Assembly (NCBI RefSeq): GCF_028713855.1
Contig: NZ_JAQTNN010000006.1
Coordinates: forward strand, 108,835-172,834
DNA: 64,000 nt
Reading direction: 5' to 3'
DNA from: Sulfuricurvum sp.
GTDB taxonomy: Bacteria; Campylobacterota; Campylobacteria; Campylobacterales; Sulfurimonadaceae
In this document: piece by piece, positions 19,749 to 36,358 of the stretch
Position numbering within the stretch: position 1 is the first letter of the stretch
How the letters are laid out: the number at the start of each line of letters is the position of its first letter
Made by a program: the position numbers and the translations under genes
Notes under the pieces: model-generated
Told to the model about the DNA's origin: nothing
Database searches by the model: none
Seen by the model: only the letters and a program-made list of their open reading frames with translations

Positions 19749-19780
19749 TTAACACAAAATTAACACTAACTGTTCATAAT
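19749..19780 (+). promoter_or_regulatory. Activator-type promoter: TAACAC direct repeat plus -10
   Basis: TTAACAC occurs at 19749-19755 and 19760-19766, an 11-base repeat period, with CATAAT at 19775-19780, eight bases after the second repeat. There is no -35 element; the repeats occupy its place. This is the geometry of PhoB/OmpR-family activated promoters. The same spacing recurs twice at 30891-30968. Confidence 0.65.
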
Positions 19781-19810
19781 CTTATCTACGGAAATTACTA
19801 TTTAGGAGAA

Positions 19811-19944
19811 ACGAAGGAGAAAAACAGAAAAAAGCCAACCAACGATCCGTCTGCTCTATGAATTGCAGCTCTCAAGCAGACGGAAAAACGTATTGCATTG
19901 CAACGCCCAAATTATAGCGTTTTTTTCTGCTATTTCTCCGACGT
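19811..19944 (+). promoter_or_regulatory. Candidate structured leader RNA (three-way junction)
   Basis: The outer stem pairs ACG/CGT, GGAGAAA with TTTCTCC, and CAGAAAAAA with TTTTTTCTG across small internal loops (19811-19833 with 19921-19944). Inside is a 10-bp perfect hairpin, TCCGTCTGCT with AGCAGACGGA (19846-19855 with 19875-19884). An alternative stem AAAAACG/CGTTTTT (19884-19890 with 19918-19924) would compete with the outer stem, a switch-like feature. No known riboswitch class is recognised. Confidence 0.5.
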
Positions 19945-19981
19945 TGTCGTGCGTACAGACCTATTTAAAAACAGGAAATGT

Positions 19982-20023
19982 ATGTTCGATATTCTCTCGC
20001 AACACCTACATCCCCTCTTTTAA
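19982..20023 (+). CDS. Possible 13-residue leader peptide
   Basis: ATG preceded by AGGA at five bases opens a 13-codon frame (MFDILSQHLHPLF) ending 34 bases before the oxidase start. It lies downstream of the structured leader. Its translation could influence the oxidase ribosome site, but there is no direct support. Confidence 0.25.
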   Translation: MFDILSQHLHPLF

Positions 20024-20057
20024 ATACCTAAACACTTAAATCTCACAGGAGGATTTT

Positions 20058-21398
20058 ATGGATATGTTAGGATTGTATCCCTTATTTTATGTTCCCCATT
20101 TTGGCTCGGCATGGCTAATGGGGCTGACAGGTGCTATTCATATTATGGCATCTCACACATCTGTAGGTGCAGCGCTTTTGTTCGCATTTTTGGCTCACAA
20201 GGCGCAAAAAGAGAACCGCACCGATTTGTATGATTATATGAAACGCTATGGAATGTTTTTGCTGATCTTCTCATACGTTATCGGCTCCATCACAGGACCG
20301 GGTATTTGGTATACGGCAACGGCGGCAAGTCCCAGAGGAATCAGTGCCCTCATCCACAACTTTGTATGGGTATGGGCTACGGAATGGGTATTTTTCGTCT
20401 ACGAAGTACTTGGTGTTTTTGCTCTCATCTATTTTATGGATAAAGTAGATCGAAAAACCCACCTGAAACTCACCTATACTTTTGCGATTGCTTCGGTCGG
20501 AACCCTCGCATTGATCATCGGTATTATCAGCTTTATGATGTGGCCGGGGACAGAAGCGTATTACACGACAGGTTCTGCCAGCGATGCGTTTTTCGGTATT
20601 AACACCTTCCCTCATATGTTTTTACGTATCGGATTCATGATTATGATGTCAGGGATCATCGGGATGATTATCTCTTCCGCCATGCGCAAAGAGAATAAAG
20701 CTCTTTCTGAAGAATTGACGCAAAAGATGGGATGGGTCAGCTTACTGGGTGGTTTCGTCACCGTCTTTTTCTTTATGTGGTATGTTAATACCCTTCCACT
20801 TAATGCGCACACATTGCTCGGAATGCAAAAAGATGCGATCGTTATGAACCGTATTATTCTTGCTGTTTTGTTCTCGATCTATTTCTCTATCGCGATTATC
20901 AAACCGCAATGGGTCACTCGCACACTTGCCATCACGATGATGTTTGTGATCGGTATTGTGGGCGTATGGCCGGGTGAAAAATTGCGTGAAAGTATGCGTA
21001 AACCATGGGTAGCGGGGCAATACGTCTACAGTGATCAAATCATCGGAAGAGATGTCCCCGGCAAAGGGATCAAAGATGAAACAGGGCGATTGTCCGAAAA
21101 AGGGTTGTTAAAACTTGACCTTTGGATTCCTGAACGTCTGCGCACTATTACCCCTGAAAACAAACTCGAAGTGGGAAAACTGCTAACGCGTATTGCCTGT
21201 TCAAACTGTCACTCTCTCGAAAAAGATGGTGTTTACCGACCACTTATACCATTAGCAGGGCCTATGGGTGAAGCAGGGATTAAAGACTACATGAAGAATG
21301 TCATCGGTACGGGCTCAGTCGCCTATATGCCAAAAATTTCTCTTCCGGACGAAGAGTATGATGCGATGGCCGCCTATATTGCCTCGCAAGCCAAATAA
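20058..21398 (+). CDS. Cytochrome bd-type oxidase subunit I with C-terminal cytochrome c domain
   Basis: The 446-residue protein starts with the CydA-like membrane part: nine or so helices, early His in GAIHIMASHTSVGAALLF, GSITGPGIWYTATAASP, and WVWATEWVFFVYEVLG. It lacks the long Q-loop of classical CydA. At residues about 370-446 is a cytochrome c domain with CSNCHSLEKDG and a Met in AYMPKISLPDEEYDAM. This layout matches the OR-C group of the bd superfamily, which probably takes electrons from cytochrome c instead of quinol. AGGAGG precedes the ATG. It is co-transcribed with the next gene (12-base gap). Substrate and function remain unproven in this group. Confidence 0.8.
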   Translation: MDMLGLYPLFYVPHFGSAWLMGLTGAIHIMASHTSVGAALLFAFLAHKAQKENRTDLYDYMKRYGMFLLIFSYVIGSITGPGIWYTATAASPRGISALIHNFVWVWATEWVFFVYEVLGVFALIYFMDKVDRKTHLKLTYTFAIASVGTLALIIGIISFMMWPGTEAYYTTGSASDAFFGINTFPHMFLRIGFMIMMSGIIGMIISSAMRKENKALSEELTQKMGWVSLLGGFVTVFFFMWYVNTLPLNAHTLLGMQKDAIVMNRIILAVLFSIYFSIAIIKPQWVTRTLAITMMFVIGIVGVWPGEKLRESMRKPWVAGQYVYSDQIIGRDVPGKGIKDETGRLSEKGLLKLDLWIPERLRTITPENKLEVGKLLTRIACSNCHSLEKDGVYRPLIPLAGPMGEAGIKDYMKNVIGTGSVAYMPKISLPDEEYDAMAAYIASQAK

Positions 21399-21410
21399 AG
21401 GAGAAAAATT

Positions 21411-22604
21411 ATGGATGCAACATTCATAAATACAATGAAGGATGCTGCCGGCGTACCGTTTTACCCGGTAGTATTCCAAGGACTTTATGTCTTAACATGG
21501 GCTCTGCACGCGGCTTTTGTATTATTGGCGCTTGGCTCTATGGGACTTTCGATCTATGGAAGTACTCAACAAAAAAGTGATCCCTATTGGAAAATACTGA
21601 CACCACATCTCATTATGACCGGCAAAATCAGTATCTCGATTCTAATCGTTTTGGGAGTTGCCCCGCTGTTGTTCACTCAGGTCATTTATGATTCGGGTTG
21701 GTATGTAGCAAATACCCTCTCAGGAGCATGGGTCTTTATCTTTATTTATGCGCTTGTCATCGGATATACAATGTACTATTGGTATCAATACTCCAATAAA
21801 AAGGGCTCATCGAGTAACACCCTGATCGGAATCGTCTCGTTTGCCATCTTGGTATTTTGCGGTGTCTTGATGCACAACTTCGCGGTTGAAGCGATCTCAC
21901 CGACAAAATGGATGGATTGGTATGCACCTAATGGTGTAGTCGATAACTCCGGATGGAATATGCATCTCGATCCTCTTCGACTTGGATTTATGGTGAGCTT
22001 GATGATTCCGGTGACCGGAATTTTTATGCAAAACTACAGCCGATTTTTGAGCACACGAAAAGATTTTGAACCGAAATATCTCGAATTTGTTAAAAAATTG
22101 GGCACCAAAATGGCTATTATCGGCTTGCTCATCAGTGCGGCATTGTTCACCGTATGGATGCAAAAAGAGAATCTCCTTTTACATCCGCTTTCATTGACTA
22201 CGGTTGTTTCGGTCGTTATACTCCTATTATTAGCGATGGGCAATAAAAACAGCTACCTTACTACTGGAGTGCTTGTCATTGTTGCACTGTTGATCTCAGG
22301 TGTCAGAGAGCTTATCCGCTATAACATTATGTCCGGTATCGGATACGATTTGTACGGTTATCACATGAATCTAGAGTGGGAAACGATTGCGATGTTCTTG
22401 CTGACGTTTGCCATACTCGGATTCACAGGGATTGCCTTCATCCTGACTATGGCATGGAAGGTCGGAAAAACAGAAGGTGTCTATACGGCAACTGAAGGTT
22501 CAGCCGTATCTCGGCTCGCTAATGCTTCATTGGCATTGTTTATACTTTGGATCACTGTTTATTTCGGATGGGGAATGGTAGCTCTATTTAAAAATACGCT
22601 CTAA
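21411..22604 (+). CDS. Second membrane subunit of the bd-like oxidase
   Basis: A 397-residue integral membrane protein with about ten helices and no cofactor motif of classical CydB. The N-terminal helices (FYPVVFQGLYVLTWALHAAFVLLALGSMGL) resemble those of the subunit I partner, as expected for the CydA-derived second subunit of the OR-C/OR-N oxidase types. Conserved-looking His residues occur in ALHAAF, TPHLIMTGK and CGVLMHNF. Its gene follows subunit I by 12 bases and shares its ribosome-site style (AAAGGAG). It ends at a hairpin terminator. Confidence 0.75.
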   Translation: MDATFINTMKDAAGVPFYPVVFQGLYVLTWALHAAFVLLALGSMGLSIYGSTQQKSDPYWKILTPHLIMTGKISISILIVLGVAPLLFTQVIYDSGWYVANTLSGAWVFIFIYALVIGYTMYYWYQYSNKKGSSSNTLIGIVSFAILVFCGVLMHNFAVEAISPTKWMDWYAPNGVVDNSGWNMHLDPLRLGFMVSLMIPVTGIFMQNYSRFLSTRKDFEPKYLEFVKKLGTKMAIIGLLISAALFTVWMQKENLLLHPLSLTTVVSVVILLLLAMGNKNSYLTTGVLVIVALLISGVRELIRYNIMSGIGYDLYGYHMNLEWETIAMFLLTFAILGFTGIAFILTMAWKVGKTEGVYTATEGSAVSRLANASLALFILWITVYFGWGMVALFKNTL

Positions 22605-22615
22605 TTCCCTTTATC

Positions 22616-22649
22616 AAGAAAGTCCCCTGTGGGACTTCTTGGTGTTTTT
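22616..22649 (+). terminator. Terminator after the oxidase operon
   Basis: AAGAAAGTCCC-CTGT-GGGACTTCTT, with one bulged A, is followed by GGTGTTTTT. It is a strong stem with a short delayed T tract. Confidence 0.6.
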
Positions 22650-22653
22650 ACAC

Positions 22654-22709
22654 GAGAGTCTTACTTGCAAAATCGACCTCCTTAAAGATTCATACCATCT
22701 AAGGCTCTC
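22654..22709. repeat. Imperfect inverted repeat between convergent genes
   Basis: GAGAGTCTTA and TAAGGCTCTC match in 9 of 10 pairs, 36 bases apart, between the oxidase terminator and the TonB receptor stop codon. There is no T run on either strand, so its role is unclear. Confidence 0.3.
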
Positions 22710-22726
22710 ATGTCAAAATATCGATC

Positions 22727-24802
22727 TTACCACTTCCCTTCAACCGATAAAAGAACCTGTGGTTTTGTGTGCTCTTTATCCACTTGAGTTTGGGTGATCG
22801 CTCCCCCTGCATCGTACAAACGTGACGTTGTCTCTACGGTTGAAGCAGTGATATTTTTCACGTTAAACTGCAATTTAAACGCTTTATTGAGCCGTTTATT
22901 GGCATAGAGATCGAGTGTACCGTACCCTTTTTGCGATTGGGATATGAAATACTCTTGCGGATCATCGTATCCGCCGACGTAGCGATAAGCCGCTCCATAG
23001 GTAATTTCTGACGCTTTGAGGGTATGGTCAAAACCGAGGTTACAGGTAAAACTCGGTGTTTGTAAAATCTCTCTTTTGACTCCCGTTAGAGTGTTGGTGA
23101 GCGATGAGTCTTGCAAGGTTGCATTGGCGAAAATACCGAAACCTTCCACATACTCTTTGAGCGATTTTTTAAGCTCTAGCTCGAGACCCCACAATGACCC
23201 CTCTCCTGCATTTTCAGGGGTTTGCTCATAGCGTCCCGATACGGAGTTAAAACGGATCGCATTTTCGATTTTATCATTGATGGTTCGATAAAACCCGCCG
23301 ATACTCGCCAAGCCTTTATCCTCAAAAAAGTGTTCATACCGAAGCTCATAACTCAGTGCTTTTTCTTCGTTCAAATTCGGGTTTCCGATCACATCGGGAC
23401 GATGGATGCTGTTTTCATCGAGGGTGCTGTTGGTACTCGCCGATAGTTGGCTGAGTCTGGGGAGACGGACGGTTTTAGCGACACTCGCACGGATATTGTC
23501 TTTTGATGTCACCTGAAACAGTGTGTGCAGAGATGGCGCGAAGTAACCCAGATTTAACGTCGCACCATAGTCTCTATTTAATGTCTCATAGCGGAGTCCT
23601 GGGGTAATGACGATCCCCTCATTCAATGTATATTCGTCTTGGATATAGAGCGAGAGTTTGTCCTCTTTCATCTGGATTTTATCGTTCACCGAGGTGACAT
23701 CTACCCCGTTTAAAATCCTTGTGGTTTCATCGATCTGATCGCTTCTTTTGAGTTCAAATCCGCCTTTCATGAAATGATCATCTCGAAGTGCCGTATAATC
23801 CCCCTGAAGACCGTAAAACCGACTCAATACATAATCGTGCTCTTTACGATTGGTAGCAGAAGGGGTCGATAATGACTCTAAATCACCGCGCTCTTCGAAC
23901 GAGTGGATTTTTGCTTTCCACTCAAAAATATCATCTCCGAATCGGTGCTCTGCCCCCAATGCTGACCAAAGCATCGTGTTGGTCGCATCGTCATGACTTC
24001 GGTAACGGCTCGTTGGAGTAGCTGAGCCCTCGGTCATAGTCGTCGAAGTGATCGTGTCACTATCATGATTAAACGTCACCGACCCGTCATAGAGTATTTT
24101 AAGGCGTGAGGAGGGGGAGTAGTTGAGCTTTGCACGCACACCCACGGAGCGATTTTTGCTCCTATCATCACGCTCTTCATTGGTATCCAATGCTGTTTTA
24201 TCGGTAACAATATCCGTCCGATCTTCTTTAATATTATTAGACGCATTCAGATTTACCAAATACGAAACTTTATCGAGTTTCCCTTCTCGTTGCACATACG
24301 CGGTTTCGCTCAAATCCTCACCGTAAGCACCGAGTGTCACTTTTGCAGAGGTTCGCCCCTCCGATTTTGGTTTTTTGAGAACAACGTTGACGATCCCCCC
24401 CATCGATTCGGCAGTGTACTCCGCCGAACCGTTCGTCATCACCTCGATCCGCTCAATCATATCGGGTGAAATCTGCTCCAGAGGACTAGAGCGTTTACTG
24501 GTTCCGGTCGAGGTTGCTTCACCGTCGATCATCACCACCGTATATCCCTTACCCGGAGCACTAGCGGGGCCTTTACCATTTGGGATCGTTACTCCGGGGG
24601 TGCGTCGGAGAATCTCTAACGCATTCGAATCACCGTATTGTGTTAATTCCTCTGCGTTGATAATCCGTTTTGCGATGGAATTGTCCCGTCGCTCATCGAT
24701 AGCGGTATACACCTGGGCAATTTGGATTTTATCGAGGGTAATAATCTCTTGCGCACAAACACTCGAACCTAAAATGATAAAATTTAAAAGATGATGATTC
24801 AC
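22727..24802 (-). CDS. TonB-dependent outer-membrane receptor (operon A, second receptor)
   Basis: A 691-residue receptor. GTG 24802 is chosen because AAGGG lies seven bases upstream and a signal peptide starts there (VNHHLLNFIILGSSVCA). The 40 residues before it in the ORF track lie inside the activator gene. The plug domain (about 25-140) shows SNALEILRRTPGVTIPNGKG, YTVVMIDGEATSTGT and IERIEVMTNGSAEYTAESMGGIVNVVLKK. The barrel fills the rest and ends in VLLSVEGKW. The plug resembles the FecA-like/OMP_b-brl_3 type more than BtuB. It is the last gene of the six-gene leftward operon, one base after the activator stop. The ligand is unknown. Confidence 0.88.
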   Translation of the reverse strand: MNHHLLNFIILGSSVCAQEIITLDKIQIAQVYTAIDERRDNSIAKRIINAEELTQYGDSNALEILRRTPGVTIPNGKGPASAPGKGYTVVMIDGEATSTGTSKRSSPLEQISPDMIERIEVMTNGSAEYTAESMGGIVNVVLKKPKSEGRTSAKVTLGAYGEDLSETAYVQREGKLDKVSYLVNLNASNNIKEDRTDIVTDKTALDTNEERDDRSKNRSVGVRAKLNYSPSSRLKILYDGSVTFNHDSDTITSTTMTEGSATPTSRYRSHDDATNTMLWSALGAEHRFGDDIFEWKAKIHSFEERGDLESLSTPSATNRKEHDYVLSRFYGLQGDYTALRDDHFMKGGFELKRSDQIDETTRILNGVDVTSVNDKIQMKEDKLSLYIQDEYTLNEGIVITPGLRYETLNRDYGATLNLGYFAPSLHTLFQVTSKDNIRASVAKTVRLPRLSQLSASTNSTLDENSIHRPDVIGNPNLNEEKALSYELRYEHFFEDKGLASIGGFYRTINDKIENAIRFNSVSGRYEQTPENAGEGSLWGLELELKKSLKEYVEGFGIFANATLQDSSLTNTLTGVKREILQTPSFTCNLGFDHTLKASEITYGAAYRYVGGYDDPQEYFISQSQKGYGTLDLYANKRLNKAFKLQFNVKNITASTVETTSRLYDAGGAITQTQVDKEHTKPQVLLSVEGKW

Positions 24803-24803
24803 T

Positions 24804-25622
24804 CTATTTCCCTTCTTCGCTTTGCATATTACACATAAACGCATCACACGCCAACACTGCCGCACCGTAGGATGTCGTGATTTGCGGATACTCAGGGACA
24901 AAAATTTTATGCCCCAGCTCATTTTCGATAGCGTTCACCAACCCATCATTGAGAGCAGGTCCTCCGTCGAAATAGACGTTCTCTTTAACCCCTACCCGTT
25001 TCACCAGTTTTACGATCCGTTTGGCGATAGAGTAATGCACTCCCGAGACGATGTCTTCGACGCTGTGGTTATTGCCTAGCAATCCGATAATCTCCGATTC
25101 GGCAAATACGGCGCACGTACTACTGATCGAGAGCGGTGTCCCCACTGATTTAAAATGATAATCACTCAGCTCATCCACCCCAATTTCCAGATTCATCGCT
25201 ACGACATCGAGAAATTTTCCCGTCCCCGCCGCGCAACGGTCATTCATAGCAAAATTGACCACATTCCCCTCGGCATCGAGTGAAATCGCCTTGCTGTCTT
25301 GTCCGCCGATGTTGATGATCGTTTTGATATTTCCGTAGCTTTTGGCGGCTTGTTGCGCTCCGATGGCATTGGCAGTAATCTCGCTGATATTTTCATCCGC
25401 CTCTTTAAACAGCTTACGACCATATCCGGTGGCTACCGTATAGACCACCTCGCTCTCATCAATACTTAACTCTTTTAGCAGCTCTGCCAACGCCTCTTGG
25501 GCGTATTTGTAAAACATACTCCCGCTTGCGCTGATTTTATGCCCGATTAGATTTTTATTCTCATCCGCGACACTGATTTTGATCGCGGTAGAGCCGATAT
25601 CTATTCCTACAAAATATCTCAT
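24804..25622 (-). CDS. ATP-dependent activator of a 2-hydroxyacyl-CoA dehydratase-type enzyme (BadF/HgdC family)
   Basis: A 272-residue ASKHA-fold ATPase. Phosphate-binding motifs are GIDIGSTAIKI near the N-terminus, NIGGQDSKAI at about 105-115 and FDGGPALNDGL near 225. The two cysteines that hold the dimer-bridging [4Fe-4S] cluster are in MNDRCAAGTGKF and ISSTCAVFAESE. Such activators push low-potential electrons into their partner at the cost of ATP. The partner gene overlaps it by 4 bases upstream. The pair resembles E. coli YjiL/YjiM and the characterised double-cubane cluster protein system, not a complete two-subunit dehydratase. Confidence 0.9.
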   Translation of the reverse strand: MRYFVGIDIGSTAIKISVADENKNLIGHKISASGSMFYKYAQEALAELLKELSIDESEVVYTVATGYGRKLFKEADENISEITANAIGAQQAAKSYGNIKTIINIGGQDSKAISLDAEGNVVNFAMNDRCAAGTGKFLDVVAMNLEIGVDELSDYHFKSVGTPLSISSTCAVFAESEIIGLLGNNHSVEDIVSGVHYSIAKRIVKLVKRVGVKENVYFDGGPALNDGLVNAIENELGHKIFVPEYPQITTSYGAAVLACDAFMCNMQSEEGK

Positions 25623-26890
25623 TTTTTCATTCTCTTTCGATTTTTTAATGACTCGATAAACGCTTCAACCCGCGTCGTAAGCTGTCCGTGTTGTGAGGGG
25701 CTGTAATCGCTCTCGATATAAAGAATCGGGATACCCTCACGCTCCATTGCCGCCAAGACACTGCGTTGTTCCATCTCATACACCTGACACCCCGCAAACG
25801 CCTGATAGATCACCCCATCACCGCTGTAACTGCGCACCAGTTGGATGATTCTGCGGATTCGGTCGTCATTTTGAGTGAATATCGGGCAAGTACACGCTTT
25901 GAGATATTTATCCGAAACCGAATCGATCATGTCATAGAGATTCCACTCATCCACTGCCACCATATCGTTAAACATACGATTCGAACTGCACGTCTCATCG
26001 GCGACGATGATTGCATCGCTCTGTTCGATAATGAGTGGGATTTTATAGTTGGGGAAAATCGGCGGTGAACCGGTATAGACGATACGCGGACTCGCTTTTC
26101 CAGCCACGTTGATACTATCACTCGCCCGTTGTTCCAACTCTGAAACCAGTTTTTCGACCGCACTTATCCACTCATCTATTTTGTCAAAGAAAAAAGCGTT
26201 CGTGACCAAAAACATATCGACACCCAAAATCGGAACTGCTTTGTTTTTTCGAAACTCGGTGAGCTTATGATAGAGCGATTGTGCATACCCCACCTTTTTA
26301 ATCGCACTCTCCAGATTGGATCTTGTCAGCTTTTTCCCCTGAAATTTAGAGAGTTTCACGGCGAAACTTTTGACACTCTCGCGCCAATAGTGACGACTCT
26401 CTTCACTCTCTTTGGTACGAGGAAATCCGACATCGATTACGGTATGTCCGAAACTCTCGATGATGGCTCCCGCTTTGGTCTTTTGGTCGCATGTCGTCGG
26501 AGAAAAAGTGATGTCGGGCTTATCGGAAAAATTATCCGAAGCGAACCACCCCACTGTTGCTTTGACCAGCGGGCACGACTTTTGAGGCAACAGATCACCA
26601 CCGATCTCATCGTCGGTATAAAACCCGTTACAGAGTCGGATCGGTACAGCGTCCAGTGCATAGATGATTTCCGAGGGGATTTGGATACACATCGTCCCGA
26701 TTTTCGCTTTCCCCTCGTGGAGCGGATGGTGATGACAATAGACTTTTTCAAACAAATCGTAAAAATAGCCCATGCTCTGGATTGGGGATTTAAAATCCTC
26801 CCGAAGTGCATTGAGGACGCTTATCGCCTCCATCGCTTTATGGCGGTTTTGACGCTCTGCCGATGTCTCAATCGTGTGTTCAGTGTGCAT
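25619..26890 (-). CDS. Double-cubane-type 2-hydroxyacyl-CoA dehydratase homologue (HgdB/BcrC family)
   Basis: The start at 26890 is set by AAGGAG five bases upstream; the 40 extra residues of the ORF track lie in the ferredoxin gene. The 423-residue protein has the HgdB/BcrC two-domain layout with family cysteine motifs KIGTMCIQIPSE, QKSCPLVKAT, SPTTCDQKT and FAGCQVYEME. A single-subunit homologue with its own activator fits the double-cubane cluster protein family, which reduces small molecules with ATP-driven electrons and whose natural substrate is unknown. The setting between TonB receptors and a polyferredoxin is unusual. Fermentative amino-acid dehydration is unlikely because no CoA-transferase gene is nearby. 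Confidence 0.85.
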   Translation of the reverse strand: MHTEHTIETSAERQNRHKAMEAISVLNALREDFKSPIQSMGYFYDLFEKVYCHHHPLHEGKAKIGTMCIQIPSEIIYALDAVPIRLCNGFYTDDEIGGDLLPQKSCPLVKATVGWFASDNFSDKPDITFSPTTCDQKTKAGAIIESFGHTVIDVGFPRTKESEESRHYWRESVKSFAVKLSKFQGKKLTRSNLESAIKKVGYAQSLYHKLTEFRKNKAVPILGVDMFLVTNAFFFDKIDEWISAVEKLVSELEQRASDSINVAGKASPRIVYTGSPPIFPNYKIPLIIEQSDAIIVADETCSSNRMFNDMVAVDEWNLYDMIDSVSDKYLKACTCPIFTQNDDRIRRIIQLVRSYSGDGVIYQAFAGCQVYEMEQRSVLAAMEREGIPILYIESDYSPSQHGQLTTRVEAFIESLKNRKRMKK

Positions 26891-27893
26891 GATTCTCCTT
26901 GATCTGATCCATCGCCATCCGTACGAGAAAGCCCTCTTTGGTCGATTCGAAAATAGTGGCTCCCATAAAATTAGCCTCCAAACACCCATTCTCAGGACAC
27001 GCCGCGACACATTTGAGACAGAGGGTACAATCTTCGGTGACTAGATTTTTGCTCGTCACGTCATCGGCGATCTCTAAAATATCCATATCGCACGCGCGGT
27101 AACAATCGCCGCATTTGGTACATTTTGAACCGTCTTTATAGAGTTTGAGCAGTGCGGGTTTCGAGAAAATGTACTGCAACGCCGCCATCGGACAAAAATA
27201 ACAAAAGAACCGCTTTTTAACGAATGATCCGACCAAAAACAGCCCGACGATTATCATCCCCAACGTCGTCATCACCAAATCCGTTTTCGACGAAAAGTCG
27301 ATATAGAACTGATTAAAATGACCCGTAAATGCCGGAATCATCATCCGTCCGGGACAAATATCACAAAACGGCATCGAGAGACCGTTGGGGAGTTTCGGAA
27401 GTCCGAACACCGAGTTGGCGATCATCACAGGAAGAAGTAACAACAAGATCAACAAGATGTATTTAATACTTTTGATCTTCCCGCGATTTGCCCATGAATA
27501 TTCACTGTAACGAATTTTGGTTTTTTCACGCACCATCGTGAGCCAGTCTTGCATTGTCCCCAGAGGGCAGACGAAACCGCACCACCCTTTATTCAATGCC
27601 CAAAACCACACCGCAAACATCCCCAAAGAGATGAGAAACGCATACCCCGCAAACCCGACGAATCCCTCAAGCGGATGTTTTAAATCATGTTGAAGCTCTC
27701 CGACATAACATTTGCCTCCTGTCCCCTCTCCGTTAAACACACACGCAAATGTCGGAAGTTTATCGCCTAAATCAAGCCCGATATATCCCCCGTAAACGAC
27801 CAAAACAAACGCGACAATCTGAAACCAAAACCGAAACCGTACGAGATTCATATTATTCACCGCACGGCGGAGACTAAACTTATTCTTCGTCAA
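26880..27893 (-). CDS. NapH/NosR-like membrane polyferredoxin (operon A)
   Basis: A 337-residue membrane iron-sulfur protein. Four to five helices are interrupted by CGFVCPLGTMQDW, CDICPGRMM and CYFCPMAALQ, the CxxxCP motifs of the NapH/NosR/RdxA family. Two [4Fe-4S] ferredoxin sites are at the C-terminus: CTKCGDCYRACDMDILE and CTLCLKCVAACPENGC. Relatives pass electrons between quinol, cytoplasm and periplasm. The TTG start is supported by AAGGAG seven bases upstream; it overlaps the previous gene by 14 bases. It could feed the double-cubane enzyme, or reduce a periplasmic metal or chelate; context does not decide. Confidence 0.88.
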   Translation of the reverse strand: MTKNKFSLRRAVNNMNLVRFRFWFQIVAFVLVVYGGYIGLDLGDKLPTFACVFNGEGTGGKCYVGELQHDLKHPLEGFVGFAGYAFLISLGMFAVWFWALNKGWCGFVCPLGTMQDWLTMVREKTKIRYSEYSWANRGKIKSIKYILLILLLLLPVMIANSVFGLPKLPNGLSMPFCDICPGRMMIPAFTGHFNQFYIDFSSKTDLVMTTLGMIIVGLFLVGSFVKKRFFCYFCPMAALQYIFSKPALLKLYKDGSKCTKCGDCYRACDMDILEIADDVTSKNLVTEDCTLCLKCVAACPENGCLEANFMGATIFESTKEGFLVRMAMDQIKENHAH

Positions 27894-28833
27894 AATAAAT
27901 CTCCTTGGGCGTTTTGCGTTTGCGCCGTCGGTTGTAATACAGCCCCAGAGAAAAGACCAACATCACCCCGATAGCGGTTGCAAACCCTAATACTTGTGAT
28001 TCGTATTCAAGCGGCGATGCACCAAACGAGAGGGGTAAACTCATCACATATCGGACACCATGATAGGCTTCGCCCTTGTACACCCCCGATTCGTTCACAT
28101 CATACGACGCTTCAACAATCATTTTTTCAGAACGTTTTTTCTCTTTTTCGGTAGTCGCATAGGTACTGCGCGGAATTTCGAAGGAGAGCACCCCCTCATC
28201 ATCGGGTTGGATCGTAGCGTTCCAACCGCTCTCCATACTCACCCGCAATGACACGTCTTTTTGCACTTTCCCTTTGTAATACACCGTGAAAGGGGCAATA
28301 TCACCTGAGTAAAGACAGCAGTTAATATGGTGTTTACGAATCGGTCTCTCCATCACCAACTCAAAAGGAAGCTGCGCGAGAGGTTTCTGATCATAATGCG
28401 AATCGTTCGTTTTCCCTCGAACCTCTTTGAGTAGCGTTTGAGAAATATTCCCCTCTTTGTTGTGAATTCTCATCGATGAAAGGTTGACGTGAAGAACACC
28501 CTCTTGAACTGATTTTTGTTCAAAATAGAGACGATAACCCCCTTTGTGTATCGGGGTAAAAGCGATTTTCCCGCCCGTCACATTCAGCTCGCTAACCGCA
28601 TGATCCATATCACGAACATAGACGACGGCATTTTTAAAATCGTGCTCTTTTTTATTCTCCTGAAGTGTCCCTTTTTTAATGACAAATTCTTTGATATTCG
28701 GCGCTTTTTCGCCGCCGCTACAACACGATTTTTTCTTGGATTCATCGAGCCATAGTGAATCTTGTGCAAAAAGAGAGACACACATACACATCGATATAAC
28801 CGCTATCTTCAATTTAAACGTGAACATTCTCAC
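27880..28833 (-). CDS. Periplasmic Cys-rich protein with C-terminal membrane anchor (DUF4198-like)
   Basis: Signal peptide (about 1-23), then SKKKSCCSGGEKAP and later HHINCCLYSGDIAPFTVYYKGK: two adjacent-Cys pairs that could bind a soft metal. The middle (about 170-250) reads like the DUF4198/Ig-type fold found in periplasmic metal-uptake proteins (NATIQPDDEGVLSFEIPRS). A single C-terminal helix (LGFATAIGVMLVFSLGLYY) and a basic tail anchor it inside out. Operon B has a positional equivalent at 33214 with His in place of the Cys pairs. Start GTG 28833 (GGAG at six bases) or ATG 28827 are both possible. The metal role is inferred. Confidence 0.7.
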   Translation of the reverse strand: MRMFTFKLKIAVISMCMCVSLFAQDSLWLDESKKKSCCSGGEKAPNIKEFVIKKGTLQENKKEHDFKNAVVYVRDMDHAVSELNVTGGKIAFTPIHKGGYRLYFEQKSVQEGVLHVNLSSMRIHNKEGNISQTLLKEVRGKTNDSHYDQKPLAQLPFELVMERPIRKHHINCCLYSGDIAPFTVYYKGKVQKDVSLRVSMESGWNATIQPDDEGVLSFEIPRSTYATTEKEKKRSEKMIVEASYDVNESGVYKGEAYHGVRYVMSLPLSFGASPLEYESQVLGFATAIGVMLVFSLGLYYNRRRKRKTPKEIYFDEE

Positions 28834-28851
28834 CTACGTCTCCTTTTTTTT

Positions 28852-30861
28852 TCAGAATGTCACTTTTAACGTACCGAAAACAATCCGCCCCGGAGAAACA
28901 TAGTATTCGGTATAGCTTTTATCAAATAGATCATCGACAGAAACGCTCGCTTCAACATTGCTTCCGAATTTGCGAGAAAGTTTTAGATCCAACGTCGTAT
29001 AACTCTCATATTCAGCCGTATTAGCATCATTGCTGTAGCGATCACCGACATATCGTGCAGAAATTTTGCTATCTACCAGATTCGGGTTTGCGTACAACAG
29101 ACTGAGTGTCCCTTTATGCTTTGGAACTTCAATCAGATATTTACCCTCCAGCGCTATATTTTCTGTATACTCTTCAATCTTGGAGATGTTATAGGTATAG
29201 TTCGCAAGCACATGGAGTTGCTCAGAAATCGGATAAGATGCATCAACTTCAAGTCCCTGTATTTTTACTTTCCCGACATTCGTTTTGGTTTGTGCGGCTG
29301 TGTATCCTCCGCTCGGTGCAGTAGTGATGTAATAGAAAAAATCTTTGGCATCATTTTGATACGCTGTTAAACTAATTTTTCCGTCATTTAAAATCGTTTG
29401 ATCCACCCCTACTTCGTAGGAGACAACACTTTCTGGTTTTAGATCGGGGTTTCCGTACCAAATTTTCGATCCGGATACAAACGTATTGTATAAATCTGAT
29501 AGGGTAGGGGCTCGATAAGCACTACCCGCAGAAACTCGGAAGGATGTATTATCATTTAAATGGTATACCGCACCGATTTTTGGGCTAAACCCGTTGGTCG
29601 ATGTCCTGTCATAATACGTATCCGTTGTAGCCAAAGAGCTGTCATACCCATGACCGTCATAATTCGTCCATGAATCGTATCTTCCCCCTAGATTGATGAT
29701 CCAGTCTTGCCCTAAAAATATCTCATCTTGGAAAAAAAGACCTAGGTACTTTTGCTTTCCTTCAACTTTGATATTTTTTCCGCTCCCGTCAATATAATGG
29801 TTAAACCGATCGATACTCCCCTGACGAAAATCAACACCGGTGACAAACGTACTGGTTCCGAATAAAGGATCATCCGTATAGGGTGCCGTCCATTGAATCA
29901 TCCCTCCTCGATCAATATTGGTACTGGAACTCTCATATTGAACAGCCGTTTTAGCCGTATTGGCAGAGTCATAGTCGCTGTATTCATCTTTGATAAAGGC
30001 TTTTACCATTAACTCGGTTTCATTACCGAATGTTTTCGTATAACCGGTCGTATACGTTTTTTGTTCCTGAGTATAAGGGTTAAACTCATTGATAGGAAGT
30101 GTCCCCGTTGTCTGATTATCATAATACGATCCCGAAAGAAATACCGAAGATCTCTTATCCAAATCATACGTTACTTTACCGTTGAGATTATTTCGCTCCG
30201 TCCCTTTGTCACGTGTATATGATTTAGTATTTACAGAAGTTTCAGGATTATAGCCATCACTGGTTGTTCTATCTCCAGAGAGAACATACCCTACTTTGCC
30301 CACTTTTCCCATCGTTGAAAGCGAGGCAATTTTAGTATTCATACTCCCATAACTGAGTGTTACATCACTTTTGGATTCGCTGGTTGGATTTTTTGTAATG
30401 ATATTAATAACCCCACCCATAGCACCCGAACCATACAATGCCGATGTTGCCCCTTTTACTATTTCAATTCTTTGGATCGTTGAGACAGGGATTCTATTCC
30501 ATTCAATATCTCCACCATAAAGATCATTCATCGGTACACCGTCTATAAGCAGTAATACGCGTCCCTCAGTCGTCCCCCCGAATCCACGCATAACTACCTT
30601 GTTAGACGTTCCGCTCGTCACTGCACCCATGCTGTGCTTTAAATCCAGACCAGACACTTCTTTGAGCAATTCATCCGCACTTTGGGCAACAGAGTTCTTG
30701 ATCTCTTGTTGTGTAATTACTTCTATACTCGCAGGGACATCGATAACTTTACGTTCCGTACGCGTTGCTGTAACCGACACATCTCCTAAATCAACAACTT
30801 CACTCGCATAGGCACTACTGCAAATTATAATCGCTGCCATTGATAACTTAATTGGATTCAT
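28852..30861 (-). CDS. TonB-dependent outer-membrane receptor, BtuB/CirA-like (operon A, first gene)
   Basis: A 669-residue receptor beginning at ATG 30861 (AAGGA seven bases upstream), nine codons inside the ORF-track start. After the signal peptide comes VVDLGDVSVTATRTERKVIDVPASIEVITQQEI, a TonB box and plug start of BtuB/CirA style. Plug motifs are LLKEVSGLDLKHS, VLLLIDGVPMNDLYGG and IQRIEIVKGATSALYGSGAMGGVINIITK. The barrel ends with IVFGTLKVTF, a good terminal Phe. First gene of the leftward operon, driven by the left half of the shared operator. Its ligand is unknown; a metal chelate is one option. Confidence 0.92.
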   Translation of the reverse strand: MNPIKLSMAAIIICSSAYASEVVDLGDVSVTATRTERKVIDVPASIEVITQQEIKNSVAQSADELLKEVSGLDLKHSMGAVTSGTSNKVVMRGFGGTTEGRVLLLIDGVPMNDLYGGDIEWNRIPVSTIQRIEIVKGATSALYGSGAMGGVINIITKNPTSESKSDVTLSYGSMNTKIASLSTMGKVGKVGYVLSGDRTTSDGYNPETSVNTKSYTRDKGTERNNLNGKVTYDLDKRSSVFLSGSYYDNQTTGTLPINEFNPYTQEQKTYTTGYTKTFGNETELMVKAFIKDEYSDYDSANTAKTAVQYESSSTNIDRGGMIQWTAPYTDDPLFGTSTFVTGVDFRQGSIDRFNHYIDGSGKNIKVEGKQKYLGLFFQDEIFLGQDWIINLGGRYDSWTNYDGHGYDSSLATTDTYYDRTSTNGFSPKIGAVYHLNDNTSFRVSAGSAYRAPTLSDLYNTFVSGSKIWYGNPDLKPESVVSYEVGVDQTILNDGKISLTAYQNDAKDFFYYITTAPSGGYTAAQTKTNVGKVKIQGLEVDASYPISEQLHVLANYTYNISKIEEYTENIALEGKYLIEVPKHKGTLSLLYANPNLVDSKISARYVGDRYSNDANTAEYESYTTLDLKLSRKFGSNVEASVSVDDLFDKSYTEYYVSPGRIVFGTLKVTF

Positions 30862-30890
30862 TAATATCCTTGTATTAAAAAAATTCAAGA

Positions 30891-30921
30891 ATTATTTCAA
30901 AGAAGTGTTACATTAGTGTTA
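30891..30921 (-). promoter_or_regulatory. Leftward activator-type promoter (operon A)
   Basis: On the minus strand: TAACAC-TAATG-TAACAC, eight bases, then AATAAT as -10 (30896-30891). The predicted start is about 30884, giving a leader of about 22 bases with an AAGGA ribosome site. The spacing equals that of the rightward and oxidase promoters. Confidence 0.65.
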
Positions 30922-30956
30922 ACTTAAATTAACTACTTAACACTAATGTAACACTT
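30903..30956. repeat. Palindromic operator between the divergent TonB operons
   Basis: AGTGTTACATTAGTGTTAA (30904-30922) and its exact reverse complement (30937-30955) are separated by 14 AT-rich bases; one further A/T pair extends each arm to 20. Each arm carries two copies of the TAACAC box 11 bases apart, so four sites in all face both operons. Confidence 0.85.
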
Positions 30957-30968
30957 TTATTTCATAAT
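30938..30968 (+). promoter_or_regulatory. Rightward activator-type promoter (operon B)
   Basis: TAACAC-TAATG-TAACAC (30938-30954), eight bases, then CATAAT (30963-30968). Beyond the boxes it shares TTCATAATC with the oxidase promoter. The predicted leader is about 29 bases, with AAGGA before ATG 31004. Confidence 0.65.
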
Positions 30969-31003: not shown

Positions 31004-33204
31004 ATGTCCAAACCCCGCCGAATCTCTCACAGTATCCTACTGTCAACACTCCTTGCAACAACGTGTTTTGCAAGTGAAGACCTCGGAATCATCGGTATTG
31101 ATTCCACCACAATCGATGATCGGTTTCACTCTTCTCGAACCGAAGTATCACCTACTGCTACCATTGACGGTCAAAAGGTAGATGATGCCCACGTTGAAAA
31201 TATTCAACAGGTTTTGCAAAGTATTCCGGGGATGACAACCGAGGTAACCTCGGGAGACAGTATCAAAATCCATATTCGAGGAGTTGAAAATCAACGCTAT
31301 ATGGGAGAAAAACCTGGGGTTGCCGTTGTCATTGACGGAGTTCCGGTATTTGAGCGAACCGGATCAGTCAACATAGATCTCGATGATATCGCCTCTATCA
31401 AAGTAATCAAAGGGGGAGCTTCGTATCTCTTCGGGGATGACGCGCTTGCCGGAGCCGTCATCATCACGACTAAAAAGGGGACGGCAAACAAATCGACAAT
31501 TTCTACCGAGATAGGGAGTTTTGGATATCACAAACTCTTAGCCGAAACTTCCCTTTCCAAAGATTCCTACAATGCACGCATTCAGGCAAGTGAGAGAAAA
31601 AGCGACGGATATTGGGCTAATTCAGGATATACGGCGCAATACGTAGACGGTAAAATACAATATTACATTGACGACTCCAGTGACCTTACCTTCGGCGCTG
31701 AAGCTTCAAAGCGCAAAAAAGACTCCCACGGAACGGTTGGCGGTGTTATCCAAGCACTTAACGATCCCAAAAGTATCTCGACAGGAACCGATGGCGGGGG
31801 TCGTGATTATGCTAGGATGTTCGATGTCGATCTACTGAAACTCTATTTAACGTACAGCAAAGATTTTGGTAACAACTCCAATCTTCTCATTAATGCATAC
31901 CAATACGGTGACGATACGACCTTTGATTCAGGGCCCCAAAAATACAGTTCGACCGGAGCGGTTGTTATCGCAGATGATGCTTACACCACACTCAATGATT
32001 ACCACCAGATTCAACGGGGATTAAAAAGCGAATACCGCAGTTCAGGAGACTATCTCGCTTATCTTCTCGGTGCGGATCTGCGCAACAATACTTATAAAAA
32101 CAAAACGTCGTATTTGGTCGATTTCAAAACCAGTGCATTCTCTCCTACCATCTACCATGCAGGTACTATTACAGGGGATAACAAAACAACAGAAGCGGTT
32201 TATGCTCCCTATGCAGAGATCAAAGTCCCTCTAGGCGAGGCAACTACGCTGACCCTTAACGGACGTTATGACAACATCCAGCTCGACTATACCAATTACT
32301 TAAACCCTGGTGACCTCCAAAAAGATTTTAATGTCTACTCTCACCGTATCGGTGTGTCACATAACCTTACCCCGAATACGACCCTCTTTATGAGCCGTTC
32401 GACCGGATTTCGCGCCCCATCCATCGATCAGCTCTTCAACGGAACCATCACCCCGTCTTCTAAAGTGCAAAGCAACCCTGATTTGAAACCCGAGCAATCG
32501 GTCGATTACGATTTGGGAATAAGAGGAACTATTCCAACTGTCGATAATACATTAACCTACGAAGCCACCCTCTTTTGGCTCGATCGTAAAAACTATATCA
32601 TGTCCTCTATCGGACAATATGCTGCAGCTACGACAACCCATCCTGAACAGTACGAAAATATCGGCGGAATGCGTAGCAAAGGGGTAGAACTCTCTCTCTC
32701 AAAAGCGATGCCAAAAAAACTTTCTCCTTTGATCTCGCCTATACCTATCTCGATTCCTACTTTACACAGTATGAAAATTTTTACCTCGGGCTTGGGAGTC
32801 CGTATGCTCCGGGCTTTACGCAGGTACATTACAACCTGACCGGAAATGAAATTCCACGTACCTCACGCCATACTTTAAACCTGACCGGCAATATCAATGT
32901 TTCACCTCAAACACTTATCTCTACCGAACTGACCGCGAGATCAAACTACTACGCCGATGAGCTCAATCAGCTCAAAATGCCGGGTTATAGCGTCGTTAAT
33001 CTTTTGGTAAATCACACTGAAAAGTACAACGGTTACAAAGTCGATATGTTTGCCCGTGTCAATAACTTTTTTGACAAATACTATTACAACACCGTCCGAA
33101 GCAGCGGCGATCGTGACTACAACCACATCTACGATCAAGAAGACCTCTCTATCACCGTCAATCAAGGTCGTGAATTTACTGTGGGCTTGTCCGTCAAATT
33201 TTAA
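31004..33204 (+). pseudogene. TonB-dependent receptor, frameshifted in an A7 run (operon B, first gene)
   Basis: The first 570 or so codons encode a signal peptide, a plug (NIQQVLQSIPGMTTEV, VAVVIDGVPVFERTG, IKVIKGGASYLFGDDALAGAVIITTKKG) and most of a barrel. At CCAAAAAAACTT (A run 32713-32719) the frame breaks; the listed ORF then reads 40 foreign residues to 32839. In the -1 frame the barrel resumes at once (TFSFDLAYTYLDSYF) and ends properly in FTVGLSVKF at 33204. One extra A would restore a 733-residue receptor. The run is a perfect A-AAA-AAA slippery heptamer in the right phase. It may be a sequencing error, phase variation, programmed frameshifting or a real pseudogene. Confidence 0.85.
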
Positions 33205-33213
33205 AGGGATCTC

Positions 33214-34032
33214 ATGAAAAAAATACTATTGCCACTCCTGTTCACCGCTACCCTTTGGGGATACGGGGACGGAGTTATTTATTGGGCTCCACATGTTTCT
33301 CATGGAGGTGAGCATTCTCATGGTAAACACGGGGGACACGGTATGGGCGAAGCCACTATGCTTCATGCCATGAATTGTGATGGGAATAGCTCTGTTATTC
33401 TGATCAAACCAGATTTGTCCAAAGAAGATCTGAACCTCAGCGACACGACGCTCAATCTCCCTAAAACCTCTGTTGGCGGTTATTATGCCCTCGTCCTCAA
33501 TCGCCACACCGATAACCAAGTCGATAGTGCTATCCGTTACCTATCCCAACAAGGGCGTCCGAGCAAAGTCTCTCCGACAAAACTGACCGCACTCCCTAAA
33601 ACAGATTTGGAGATTGTCCCTAATCCATTGCACCGCGAACATGATCGCTATACCGCATCCAAAAAATATCGATTTCTCTTAACGTTTCAGGGCAAACCGC
33701 TCTCCAATACACCGATCACTCTGGAAACGAAAAATGCCTCTGTTGTGAACTATACCACCGATGAAACAGGCGCAGTGACGATCACTTTTCCGAACGATTT
33801 TAAAGAGGTATCAAGTGTTAAAGAAGAAAACAAGCCTTCCGAATTTCTCCTCAAAACCCGCTACCAAGATGGAGAGTTAGTCTATGTTACTACCCTCTCA
33901 ATGCCCTATTCGCTCAACCCGAATGATTACTGGCAATCCCAAAAGTACGGTGCAGGTGCCGTATTTATCGGTTTCCTAGGGGGATTGCTCCTCTATCGCC
34001 GCAGCAAAAAAACAGGAGTATCCCGTGGATAA
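33214..34032 (+). CDS. Periplasmic His-rich protein with C-terminal anchor (DUF4198-like)
   Basis: A 272-residue protein. Signal peptide at 1-16, then a His/Gly-rich metal-binding-like stretch (HVSHGGEHSHGKHGGHGMG) and AMNCDGN. The central domain includes PLHREHDRYTASKKYRFLLTFQGKPLSNTPITLET, typical of DUF4198 Ig-like domains associated with metal uptake. One C-terminal helix (GAVFIGFLGGLLLYRR) and a basic tail end the protein. It is the counterpart of the Cys-pair protein at 27880 in the opposite operon. AAAGG precedes its ATG, nine bases after the receptor stop. Function is unknown; metal binding is inferred from composition. Confidence 0.72.
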   Translation: MKKILLPLLFTATLWGYGDGVIYWAPHVSHGGEHSHGKHGGHGMGEATMLHAMNCDGNSSVILIKPDLSKEDLNLSDTTLNLPKTSVGGYYALVLNRHTDNQVDSAIRYLSQQGRPSKVSPTKLTALPKTDLEIVPNPLHREHDRYTASKKYRFLLTFQGKPLSNTPITLETKNASVVNYTTDETGAVTITFPNDFKEVSSVKEENKPSEFLLKTRYQDGELVYVTTLSMPYSLNPNDYWQSQKYGAGAVFIGFLGGLLLYRRSKKTGVSRG

Positions 34033-35026
34033 ACTATTGACCGTGACCGCCCTTCGACGGATTGTTCAACTTACCGCATTTGTTTTTTTCGTCTACGGTG
34101 CGATGATTTTTACCACGTTCTATACCGGAGACAAACTGACCCAAAGTCTCCCTGCTCTCTCATGTGCGTATGACATGAAAGGGGGAGACTTCTGTACTCT
34201 CATCCCATTACAGCATCAGATGGATCACCGCGTATCAAGCATTTTCACCCAAGGCGAAAAAGTGTTGCCGGCACTCATGGGAACCCTCATCACCCTCGGA
34301 ACCGTCGCCGTTCTCATCCTCATCCTCAACAAAGCGTTTTGCGGTTGGCTCTGTCCGCTCGGATTTTTTCAGGACGTTTTCACGATGATCGGAACCAAGC
34401 TGGGACTTATCCAACTCGGAAGCCTTTCACGTGAAACAGTGAATAAAATCCGCCCGATCAAATGGTTTGTCTTCCTCTTTTTAGTGTTGATTCTCCCTCT
34501 TTTAACGGGGATCGGCTTTCTAGGGCACGAATGGGGCAATCCTTACTGCTCTATCTGCCCTAGCCGTATTATGACGACAACCATAACCGGAGACATGTCA
34601 CAGGTTTATATCTCTCAGGCTAACTGGGGATATTTTGCCCTCTCCCTCATCGCCGATCTGATGTTCGGTTTGATGGTTGCCCTTGCCCTCTTCGTCCGTC
34701 AACCGTTTTGCCGTATCTGTCCTATGCTGCCGATGCAAACCTTGTTTAAAAAAATCGGCTTGTTACGCCTCGTCAAAAATGGCGATTCACACTGCGAATC
34801 GTGCGGTAACTGCGTCAAAGCATGCCCTATGGATATTTATGAGATTCAAGACCAAGCCGAAAACAAAAATATCACCCACGCGGATTGTACCCTCTGCGGA
34901 CGATGTGTCGAATTTTGTCCGCATGATGGAATAATGAATTTCAAATACGGTCCGTTTACCATCCTCTCTTCTTCCAAAGAAGGGTTTAAAAAACGAACTA
35001 AAATAGACAAATGGTGGAAAGCATAA
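34025..35026 (+). CDS. NapH/NosR-like membrane polyferredoxin (operon B)
   Basis: A 333-residue relative of the operon A polyferredoxin, with the same plan: membrane helices, CGWLCPLGFFQDVF, CSICPSRIMTTTITGD, CRICPMLPMQTLF, then two ferredoxin clusters CESCGNCVKACPMDIYE and CTLCGRCVEFCPHDG. GTG start with AGGAG six bases upstream; it overlaps the previous gene by 8 bases. Here no double-cubane enzyme accompanies it; a DsbD/TauE-like membrane protein follows instead, so electrons may go to the periplasm. The duplication of this gene in two facing operons argues for a shared core function. Confidence 0.88.
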   Translation: MDKLLTVTALRRIVQLTAFVFFVYGAMIFTTFYTGDKLTQSLPALSCAYDMKGGDFCTLIPLQHQMDHRVSSIFTQGEKVLPALMGTLITLGTVAVLILILNKAFCGWLCPLGFFQDVFTMIGTKLGLIQLGSLSRETVNKIRPIKWFVFLFLVLILPLLTGIGFLGHEWGNPYCSICPSRIMTTTITGDMSQVYISQANWGYFALSLIADLMFGLMVALALFVRQPFCRICPMLPMQTLFKKIGLLRLVKNGDSHCESCGNCVKACPMDIYEIQDQAENKNITHADCTLCGRCVEFCPHDGIMNFKYGPFTILSSSKEGFKKRTKIDKWWKA

Positions 35027-35030
35027 ATCG

Positions 35031-35678
35031 ATGGAAATGATGACTCTCCTTTCCCTTTTTATTGTCGCCCTCTCCTATGGGGCAACCGCTTGTATGCTCA
35101 CCTGCATGCCGTTGCTCTCACCGATTCTTTTGGCAAACAGCGCAACACGGCAGCAAAGCTTGAAAGTTCTCCTCCCGATCAGTCTGGGACGGATCAGCGG
35201 CTATATTTTCCTCTCCCTCATCGCCTATCTCGGTGCAAGCATGATTAAAACACTCATAAGCGACACGACGTTGATGGGGTATCTCCTCGGCAGTGTTACC
35301 CTTATCCTCGCCTGGCGCTTGTGGTTTTCGCTGAGAGATTCGGCGTCTTGTTGCAACACTTCACCCGATGCACCGCAAGGCAACATAGCCCTATTTATGG
35401 CGGGAATGTTCCTCTCTATGTCGATATGCGCACCGGTTGTCACCATGATGACGCTCAGCGCCACAACTACTTCTATCGGATGGGCGATTGCTTATGGATT
35501 AGCCTTTGGGTTGGGTGCGACACTGTTGTGGTTTCTCTTTTTTTCAGTGGTTCTTACTCAGGTACTCAAAGAGAGTCTGAAACATCTCTCACACTATCGA
35601 AATGTTTTACAACACTTAGCTCCCCTTCTCCTCGCAGGGGTCGGCATTGCAATTTTTAAAGGATGGATACACTTATGA
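35031..35678 (+). CDS. DsbD/CcdA- or TauE-like membrane protein
   Basis: A 215-residue protein of six helices. The N-terminal helix has GATACMLTCMPLLSPILLAN, a Cys-x(3)-Cys in a helix followed by a proline, and helix four has SMSICAPVVTMMTL, which resembles the paired cysteines of the DsbD/CcdA or UreH-like transmembrane domain. A cytoplasmic SCCN loop lies between. CcdA-type proteins carry thiol electrons across the membrane, which would suit an operon with a polyferredoxin. A metal transporter of the SafE type is the alternative. Confidence 0.75.
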   Translation: MEMMTLLSLFIVALSYGATACMLTCMPLLSPILLANSATRQQSLKVLLPISLGRISGYIFLSLIAYLGASMIKTLISDTTLMGYLLGSVTLILAWRLWFSLRDSASCCNTSPDAPQGNIALFMAGMFLSMSICAPVVTMMTLSATTTSIGWAIAYGLAFGLGATLLWFLFFSVVLTQVLKESLKHLSHYRNVLQHLAPLLLAGVGIAIFKGWIHL

Positions 35679-36358
35679 TGACAACAGCACGCAAATCGTT
35701 TCTCCTCTCACTCATGTTTCATTCCCTAATGGGATCATTGGCTTTTATGGTCTTGGTACAGATGCGTACTCCCCCACCCATGCTGAAAATTCAGCTTCAA
35801 CATATGACGCTTGTCTCCCTATCCGATTCAAAACCTATTCCGAAGCGAGCGGAAATTTCCGAACCGACACCCGCAATCACACCGCCACAACCAACCCCGA
35901 TAAAACCGTTGGTTACACAGCCGATTGTTCCCACAAAAGCCATCAATCCACAACCGATTGCCCCATCCGTTCAAGCCGCACCGACTACTCTAGCGACTCC
36001 GACACCTATCGTCACAACCGCTCCAGTAGCAGACGTTACCCCTCCCCCTAAAGCAAAAATCAATACCGCCTCTGAACTGCAATCGTTTAAGGCCTCTTTA
36101 CGAACCAAGATCAAACAAAATCTCCGTTATCCCTCAGCCGCACGACGCAGAGGGATGGAAGGGGAAGTATCGGTTCGGTTTACCGTATTTGCGGATGGTT
36201 CGATTCGTGAGATAGCAGTTCGACAGGGAGAAGATATTTTTCACAATGCGGCAAAAGCGGCAGTCGCTTCAAGCTCAGGGATTGATGTTCCTAAAAGTCT
36301 CACAGAATCTTTACCGATGGAGATGGATCTAATCTTGGAATTTAAACTAAACAGCTGA
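35675..36358 (+). CDS. tonB: Energy-transducing protein TonB
   Basis: A 227-residue TonB. N-terminal membrane anchor (SFLLSLMFHSLMGSLAFMVLV) with the usual Ser/His positions, a Pro/Thr-rich periplasmic spacer (about 65-130, PQPTPIKPLVTQPIVPTK) and a C-terminal TonB domain (about 140-225) with YPSAARRRGMEGEVSVRFTV and GSIREIAVRQG. The ATG at 35675 overlaps the previous stop by 4 bases, so I prefer it over 35663. No exbB/exbD genes are in the window, so it must use a pair encoded elsewhere. It probably energises the receptors of both operons. Confidence 0.9.
   Translation: MMTTARKSFLLSLMFHSLMGSLAFMVLVQMRTPPPMLKIQLQHMTLVSLSDSKPIPKRAEISEPTPAITPPQPTPIKPLVTQPIVPTKAINPQPIAPSVQAAPTTLATPTPIVTTAPVADVTPPPKAKINTASELQSFKASLRTKIKQNLRYPSAARRRGMEGEVSVRFTVFADGSIREIAVRQGEDIFHNAAKAAVASSSGIDVPKSLTESLPMEMDLILEFKLNS

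Follow-up and report, generated by a model that had tools for sequence, protein, structure and literature searches.

A tandem promoter box upstream of TonB receptor genes, copper-handling genes and a bd-type oxidase in Sulfuricurvum and other Campylobacterota

In a 64,000-nucleotide stretch of a Sulfuricurvum sp. genome (contig NZ_JAQTNN010000006.1, positions 108,835 to 172,834; hereafter the window), an oxidase operon and two divergent TonB operons are each preceded by the same promoter box, TAACAC-N5-TAACAC-N8-[CA]ATAAT. These three promoters belong to a real regulon. The box recurs before copper-uptake genes and a copper-free oxidase, and thus probably marks an undescribed copper-shortage response. 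We consider it fairly probable that the box is the site of an OmpR-family regulator and that a regulator and kinase pair encoded in a pyrC-linked operon activates copper uptake and the copper-free oxidase when copper is scarce.

Architecture and distribution of the box

A pattern scan of the 64-kb window found three sites, each with zero mismatches (Table 1), as the preliminary description had proposed. Its coordinates were correct for both TonB-operon sites but one base early for the oxidase site (19749 instead of 19750), and the sequence it gave as common to the rightward and oxidase promoters, TTCATAATC, is present. By chance only 0.05 matches are expected in the window, even allowing three mismatches, and no shuffle gave three. 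The box comprises a TTAACAC-like half-site repeated with an 11-base period and followed by a sigma70-like -10; read by eye, no -35 element is seen at the window promoters. Spacing was strongly constrained, with N5 in 111 of 150 listed TAACAC-N(2-10)-TAACAC pairs (p = 2e-72 against equal spacings) and a single distance to the -10 in all 40 matches of a scan permitting 16 spacings before ATAAT. Both the 10-11 base direct-repeat period and the constant -10 distance of OmpR/PhoB-type boxes are thus found here. The start codon usually lies 25-36 bases downstream of the -10 (18-45 in 60 of 108).

Exact matches in the Sulfuricurvum genome (2.81 Mb) number four, the three window sites and one at C2:227600-227630. 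The latter lies inside a 641-amino-acid coding frame and is unexplained or due to chance; it was set aside because it scores lower (19.8 bits) and its sequence is not among the listed matches of other genus genomes. Near matches add four further promoters (Table 1). Across the genus (Sulfuricurvum, assigned from oxidase matches), 40 of 41 genomes contain a match with at most one mismatch, against control columns that sum to 4. Across the order, an exact match was found in 70 of 200 genomes and few were found in the control; many genomes are draft assemblies, whose contigs may be mis-joined. Among the 83 distinct genes that directly follow the box in the order set are 25 TonB receptors, 13 NosL proteins (profile PF05573), seven Cyt_bd_oxida_I proteins, three ExbB, two PCuAC and two DsbD_2, and the NosL-type protein at L171 matches solved NosL structures. 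The motif is therefore not scattered at random: its matches concentrate order-wide before oxidase, TonB, ExbB and copper-chaperone genes. In some other Sulfuricurvum genomes (L070 7870-10586, L077 11295-14011, L215 and L223) the box precedes a different two-gene pair of membrane proteins of 464 and 440 amino acids.

The association with the oxidase is widely conserved. A sense-oriented box precedes nearly all Campylobacterota oxidase orthologs (exceptions L231, L238 and L264), with named relatives in Sulfuricurvum, Sulfurimonas, Sulfurovum, Sulfurospirillum and Arcobacter. Most of these sites exceed the 99% threshold set with random sequence (4.4 bits), although the scores are only descriptive because the control composition was assumed and related sites supplied part of the matrix. 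The box is absent upstream of oxidase orthologs in named Alpha-, Beta- and Gammaproteobacteria and Verrucomicrobia. Orthologs without a box (L270-L305) share about 46-54% identity and occur in Hyphomicrobium, Burkholderiales, Thiomonas and methanotrophic Verrucomicrobia. One locus whose record is titled simply Proteobacteria bacterium (L268) combines a 62% identical oxidase with a site; it may be a Campylobacterota bin under the wrong label.

The oxidase itself is predicted to be a copper-free enzyme of the bd superfamily, bearing a cytochrome c domain at its C terminus. The 12 best structure matches to the predicted fold of subunit I were all bd-oxidase chains (best E 7e-5, template-modelling score about 0.5, model predicted local distance difference test score 73). 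Close relatives match PF01654 (Cyt_bd_oxida_I) at up to 1e-5; the window protein itself gave no PF01654 match at E 0.001. Fold and family profile of relatives thus agree with the earlier label of a bd-like oxidase. The adjoining membrane protein matches no Pfam or NCBIfam family. Two heme-copper oxidase genes are carried by the same genome, and their copper could be spared.

Candidate regulator, metal and alternative explanations

What the sequence shows directly is the box, how it is spaced and conserved, the genes targeted and the OmpR domains. One box-driven operon, linked to pyrC, encodes an OmpR-family response regulator (PF00072 and PF00486; G000:C3:94098-94757) and its histidine kinase. 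Together with direct repeats that recur after 11 bases at a fixed distance from the -10, this supports the activator geometry of PhoB/OmpR type that had been suggested. The box lies upstream of the pyrC-regulator-kinase-exbB-exbD operon across the genus and this gene order is found in many families, with the box between the kinase gene and exbB in one other family. Elsewhere the box and related regulators adjoin an OprC-type receptor (L143), ExbB (L147) or NosL (L190). These three regulators fall in a clade with the pyrC-linked ones, although a DUF1104-linked sister clade nests with them. Amongst 23 OmpR loci in the Sulfuricurvum genome, a strong site is found only at the pyrC-linked operon (35 bits). 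A TTACAT-N5-TTACAC site of 17.6 bits (L026 287-317) lies beside another OmpR-type regulator of this genome. In the motif-poor families f11, f14 and f16, with one intragenic match in 48 genomes, regulator matches are only weaker. The pyrC-linked regulator is the best candidate for the activator.

The metal behind the regulon is most likely copper, because the targets include OprC-like receptors with the copper site, NosL, PCuAC and HMA proteins. The box-driven receptor at C3:166028 has the copper receptor OprC as its best match (7e-25, next non-OprC match 4e-7). It retains both CxxxM and HxM, the two halves of the OprC copper site (PMC8610252). In relatives, 16 box-driven receptors carry the CxxxM element as CPNRM. 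The C13 box precedes an exported HMA protein of 87 amino acids with MxCxxC.

From these data we infer that the regulator binds the box, that it activates and does not repress, that the signal is copper, and which of the related regulators acts. The tandem TTAACAC box would be occupied by an OmpR-family regulator beside the -10, substituting for the missing -35 contact. This would most likely be the pyrC-linked protein, co-driven by the box with its kinase and ExbB/ExbD. Under copper scarcity the kinase would phosphorylate the regulator, which would then switch on copper uptake across the outer membrane by TonB receptors, OprC-type ones among them, together with the TonB engine, periplasmic copper handling (the HMA and DsbD_2 proteins, with NosL and PCuAC in relatives) and a bd-type oxidase that does not need copper.

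Several observations weigh against this reading. Both box-driven window receptors lack the OprC site and are like Cir, BtuB or haem receptors, and we know of no copper role for the double-cubane reductase encoded in the operon of one of them. The pyrC-linked kinase has two membrane helices joined by a loop of about ten residues, without a periplasmic sensor domain, and the co-occurrence of regulator and motif is confounded by phylogeny. In a sister regulator clade (DUF1104-linked; L036 in the same genome) the box is nearly identical, but its second half reads CTAACAC; one member of the clade adjoins NosL and has an ordinary box. A DUF2202-regulator-kinase operon in the relative G001 likewise has an ordinary box. 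Downstream of boxes with the CTAACAC half lie mainly DUF2202, DUF1104 and response regulator genes, with NosL and a TonB receptor once each; these boxes are probably part of a paralogous system. Such CTAACAC-like boxes were seen before DUF1104 or DUF2202 genes and OmpR-type regulators at L011, L036, L084, L102, L106, L155 and L170.

The sister regulators give the main rival its basis: the regulon and its copper logic would stand, but a paralogous OmpR-family regulator (for example DUF1104- or DUF2202-linked) would act, or paralogs would share the box. The near-identical boxes and the sister regulator adjoining NosL favour this. We nevertheless consider it rather unlikely, as the only strong site in the genome is at the pyrC-linked operon, that operon carries ExbB/ExbD, and in other families homologues of its regulator adjoin genes for OprC-type receptors, ExbB or NosL. 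The likeness of the window receptors to siderophore, haem and B12 receptors and the presence of a terminal oxidase among the targets would also suit an OmpR-type site answering another signal, such as iron or haem status, oxygen or respiratory state, with copper genes only a part. This is quite improbable given that target genes in different families repeatedly encode NosL, PCuAC, HMA proteins and OprC-type receptors bearing the copper site. That the site is a repressor operator or the promoter of an alternative sigma factor we regard as very improbable: two identical half-sites 11 bases apart that adjoin a sigma70-like -10, where no -35 is seen, fit an activator, and so does an OmpR-type regulator driven by the box. 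Chance likeness of the three promoters is negligible, being refuted by the genus scan and opposed by the order scan, the window expectation and the spacing tests.

The activation of copper uptake and the copper-free oxidase by the pyrC-linked pair could be extended. Most free-living Campylobacterota might have a copper-starvation two-component system whose kinase senses inside the membrane and in which one box serves OprC-type uptake, the TonB engine and the copper-free oxidase. In Sulfuricurvum the polyferredoxin and double-cubane-type reductase might reduce an imported copper chelate, freeing the metal. We hold this extended scheme to be unlikely.

Genes of the window operons

The first receptor of the leftward operon (28852-30888) has Cir and BtuB as its best solved relatives and lacks CxxxM. 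It and the receptor of the rightward operon were considered as members of the OprC family and rejected, as neither has OprC homology or the copper site. The frame of the rightward receptor shifts near 32640-32720 relative to the intact copy in G001, and the remainder of the barrel continues in another frame to about 33200 (tblastn); a mutation or an assembly error may be responsible. The BadF-type ATPase and the double-cubane-cluster reductase homologue (24804-27010) are part of the leftward box-driven operon. The latter scores 327 bits against the NCBIfam double_cubane model, a little below the curated cut-off of 350.

Table 1. Promoter boxes and genes of the window, with further boxes of the same genome
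Feature	Position	Strand	Basis or context
Promoter box of oxidase operon, TAACACAAAATTAACACTAACTGTTCATAAT	19750..19780	+	exact pattern match
Oxidase subunit I, bd superfamily, C-terminal cytochrome c domain (predicted)	20058..21398	+	Pfam Cytochrome_CBB3; relatives Cyt_bd_oxida_I; predicted fold
Probable oxidase subunit II, membrane protein	21411..22604	+	adjoins subunit I; role inferred from position
TonB-dependent receptor, last gene of leftward cluster	22727..24922	-	Pfam; operon membership inferred
BadF/BadG-type ATPase	24804..25622	-	Pfam
Double-cubane-cluster reductase homologue (2-hydroxyacyl-CoA dehydratase D superfamily)	25619..27010	-	Pfam HGD-D
Membrane polyferredoxin	26880..27893	-	Fer4_5/Fer4_10
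Cys-containing, probably exported protein	27880..28833	-	sequence; no family match
TonB-dependent receptor, first gene of leftward operon, not OprC-like	28852..30888	-	Pfam
Promoter box of leftward operon, TAACACTAATGTAACACTTCTTTGAAATAAT	30891..30921	-	exact pattern match
Promoter box of rightward operon, TAACACTAATGTAACACTTTTATTTCATAAT	30938..30968	+	exact pattern match
TonB-dependent receptor, interrupted frame	31004..32839	+	Pfam truncated barrel; tblastn with intact relative
His-rich, probably exported protein, weak DUF4198	33214..34032	+	Pfam below cut-off; sequence
Membrane polyferredoxin, NapH-like	34025..35026	+	Pfam; NCBIfam below cut-off
DsbD_2 membrane protein	35031..35678	+	Pfam
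TonB	35663..36358	+	Pfam TonB_C
Box, same genome	C3:166028		upstream of TonB receptor, OprC-like
Box, same genome	C3:97242		upstream of operon phosphomannomutase-pyrC-response regulator-kinase-ExbB-ExbD-2OG oxygenase-TerC
Box, same genome	C13:3784		between divergent pair HMA protein/DsbD_2 protein
Box, same genome	C16:35802		upstream of gene without assigned function

Relation to known systems

Activator boxes of the PhoB/PmrA/OmpR type consist of two half-sites 10-11 bases apart, directly upstream of the -10 and replacing the -35. The box described here is like them in its paired half-sites, which abut the -10 in the -35 position; the TTAACAC half-site and this set of targets are, to our knowledge, new amongst such boxes. 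In work by Frangipani from 2008, copper starvation of Pseudomonas aeruginosa reportedly induced cioAB, which encodes a bd-superfamily oxidase that works without copper. An oxidase of this kind is likewise tied to copper limitation in our scheme, and we know of no cis element described as common to cioAB and oprC in the P. aeruginosa response. The main text of a Nitratiruptor copper-stress transcriptome has no TonB, NosL, dihydroorotase or histidine-kinase entries (PMC10092412). No earlier description of this box, regulon or regulator was found in searches of the open-licence literature.

Across Campylobacterota, one searchable box thus links a copper-free oxidase with OprC-type receptors, copper chaperones and ExbB/ExbD. 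It points to one regulator, and the question is therefore directly testable in culturable species. The closest parallels come from copper acquisition in other bacteria. The TonB-dependent copper transporters OprC and NosA of Pseudomonas are repressed by copper (PMC8610252). The receptor at C3:166028 is homologous to OprC with CxxxM and HxM retained, but unlike in those systems there is a common cis element with a candidate regulator, and two window receptors fall outside the family. In Bordetella, the TonB-dependent transporter CrtA imports copper across the outer membrane to serve respiratory oxidases (PMC12914433). The same link between outer-membrane copper import and respiratory oxidases is suggested here, although with another receptor subfamily. 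In Mycobacterium tuberculosis, copper acquisition and a copper-free bd oxidase jointly sustain respiration under copper limitation (PMC12140626). The Sulfuricurvum regulon would pair copper acquisition with a copper-free bd oxidase in the same way, with TonB-dependent uptake under one promoter box in place of chalkophores.
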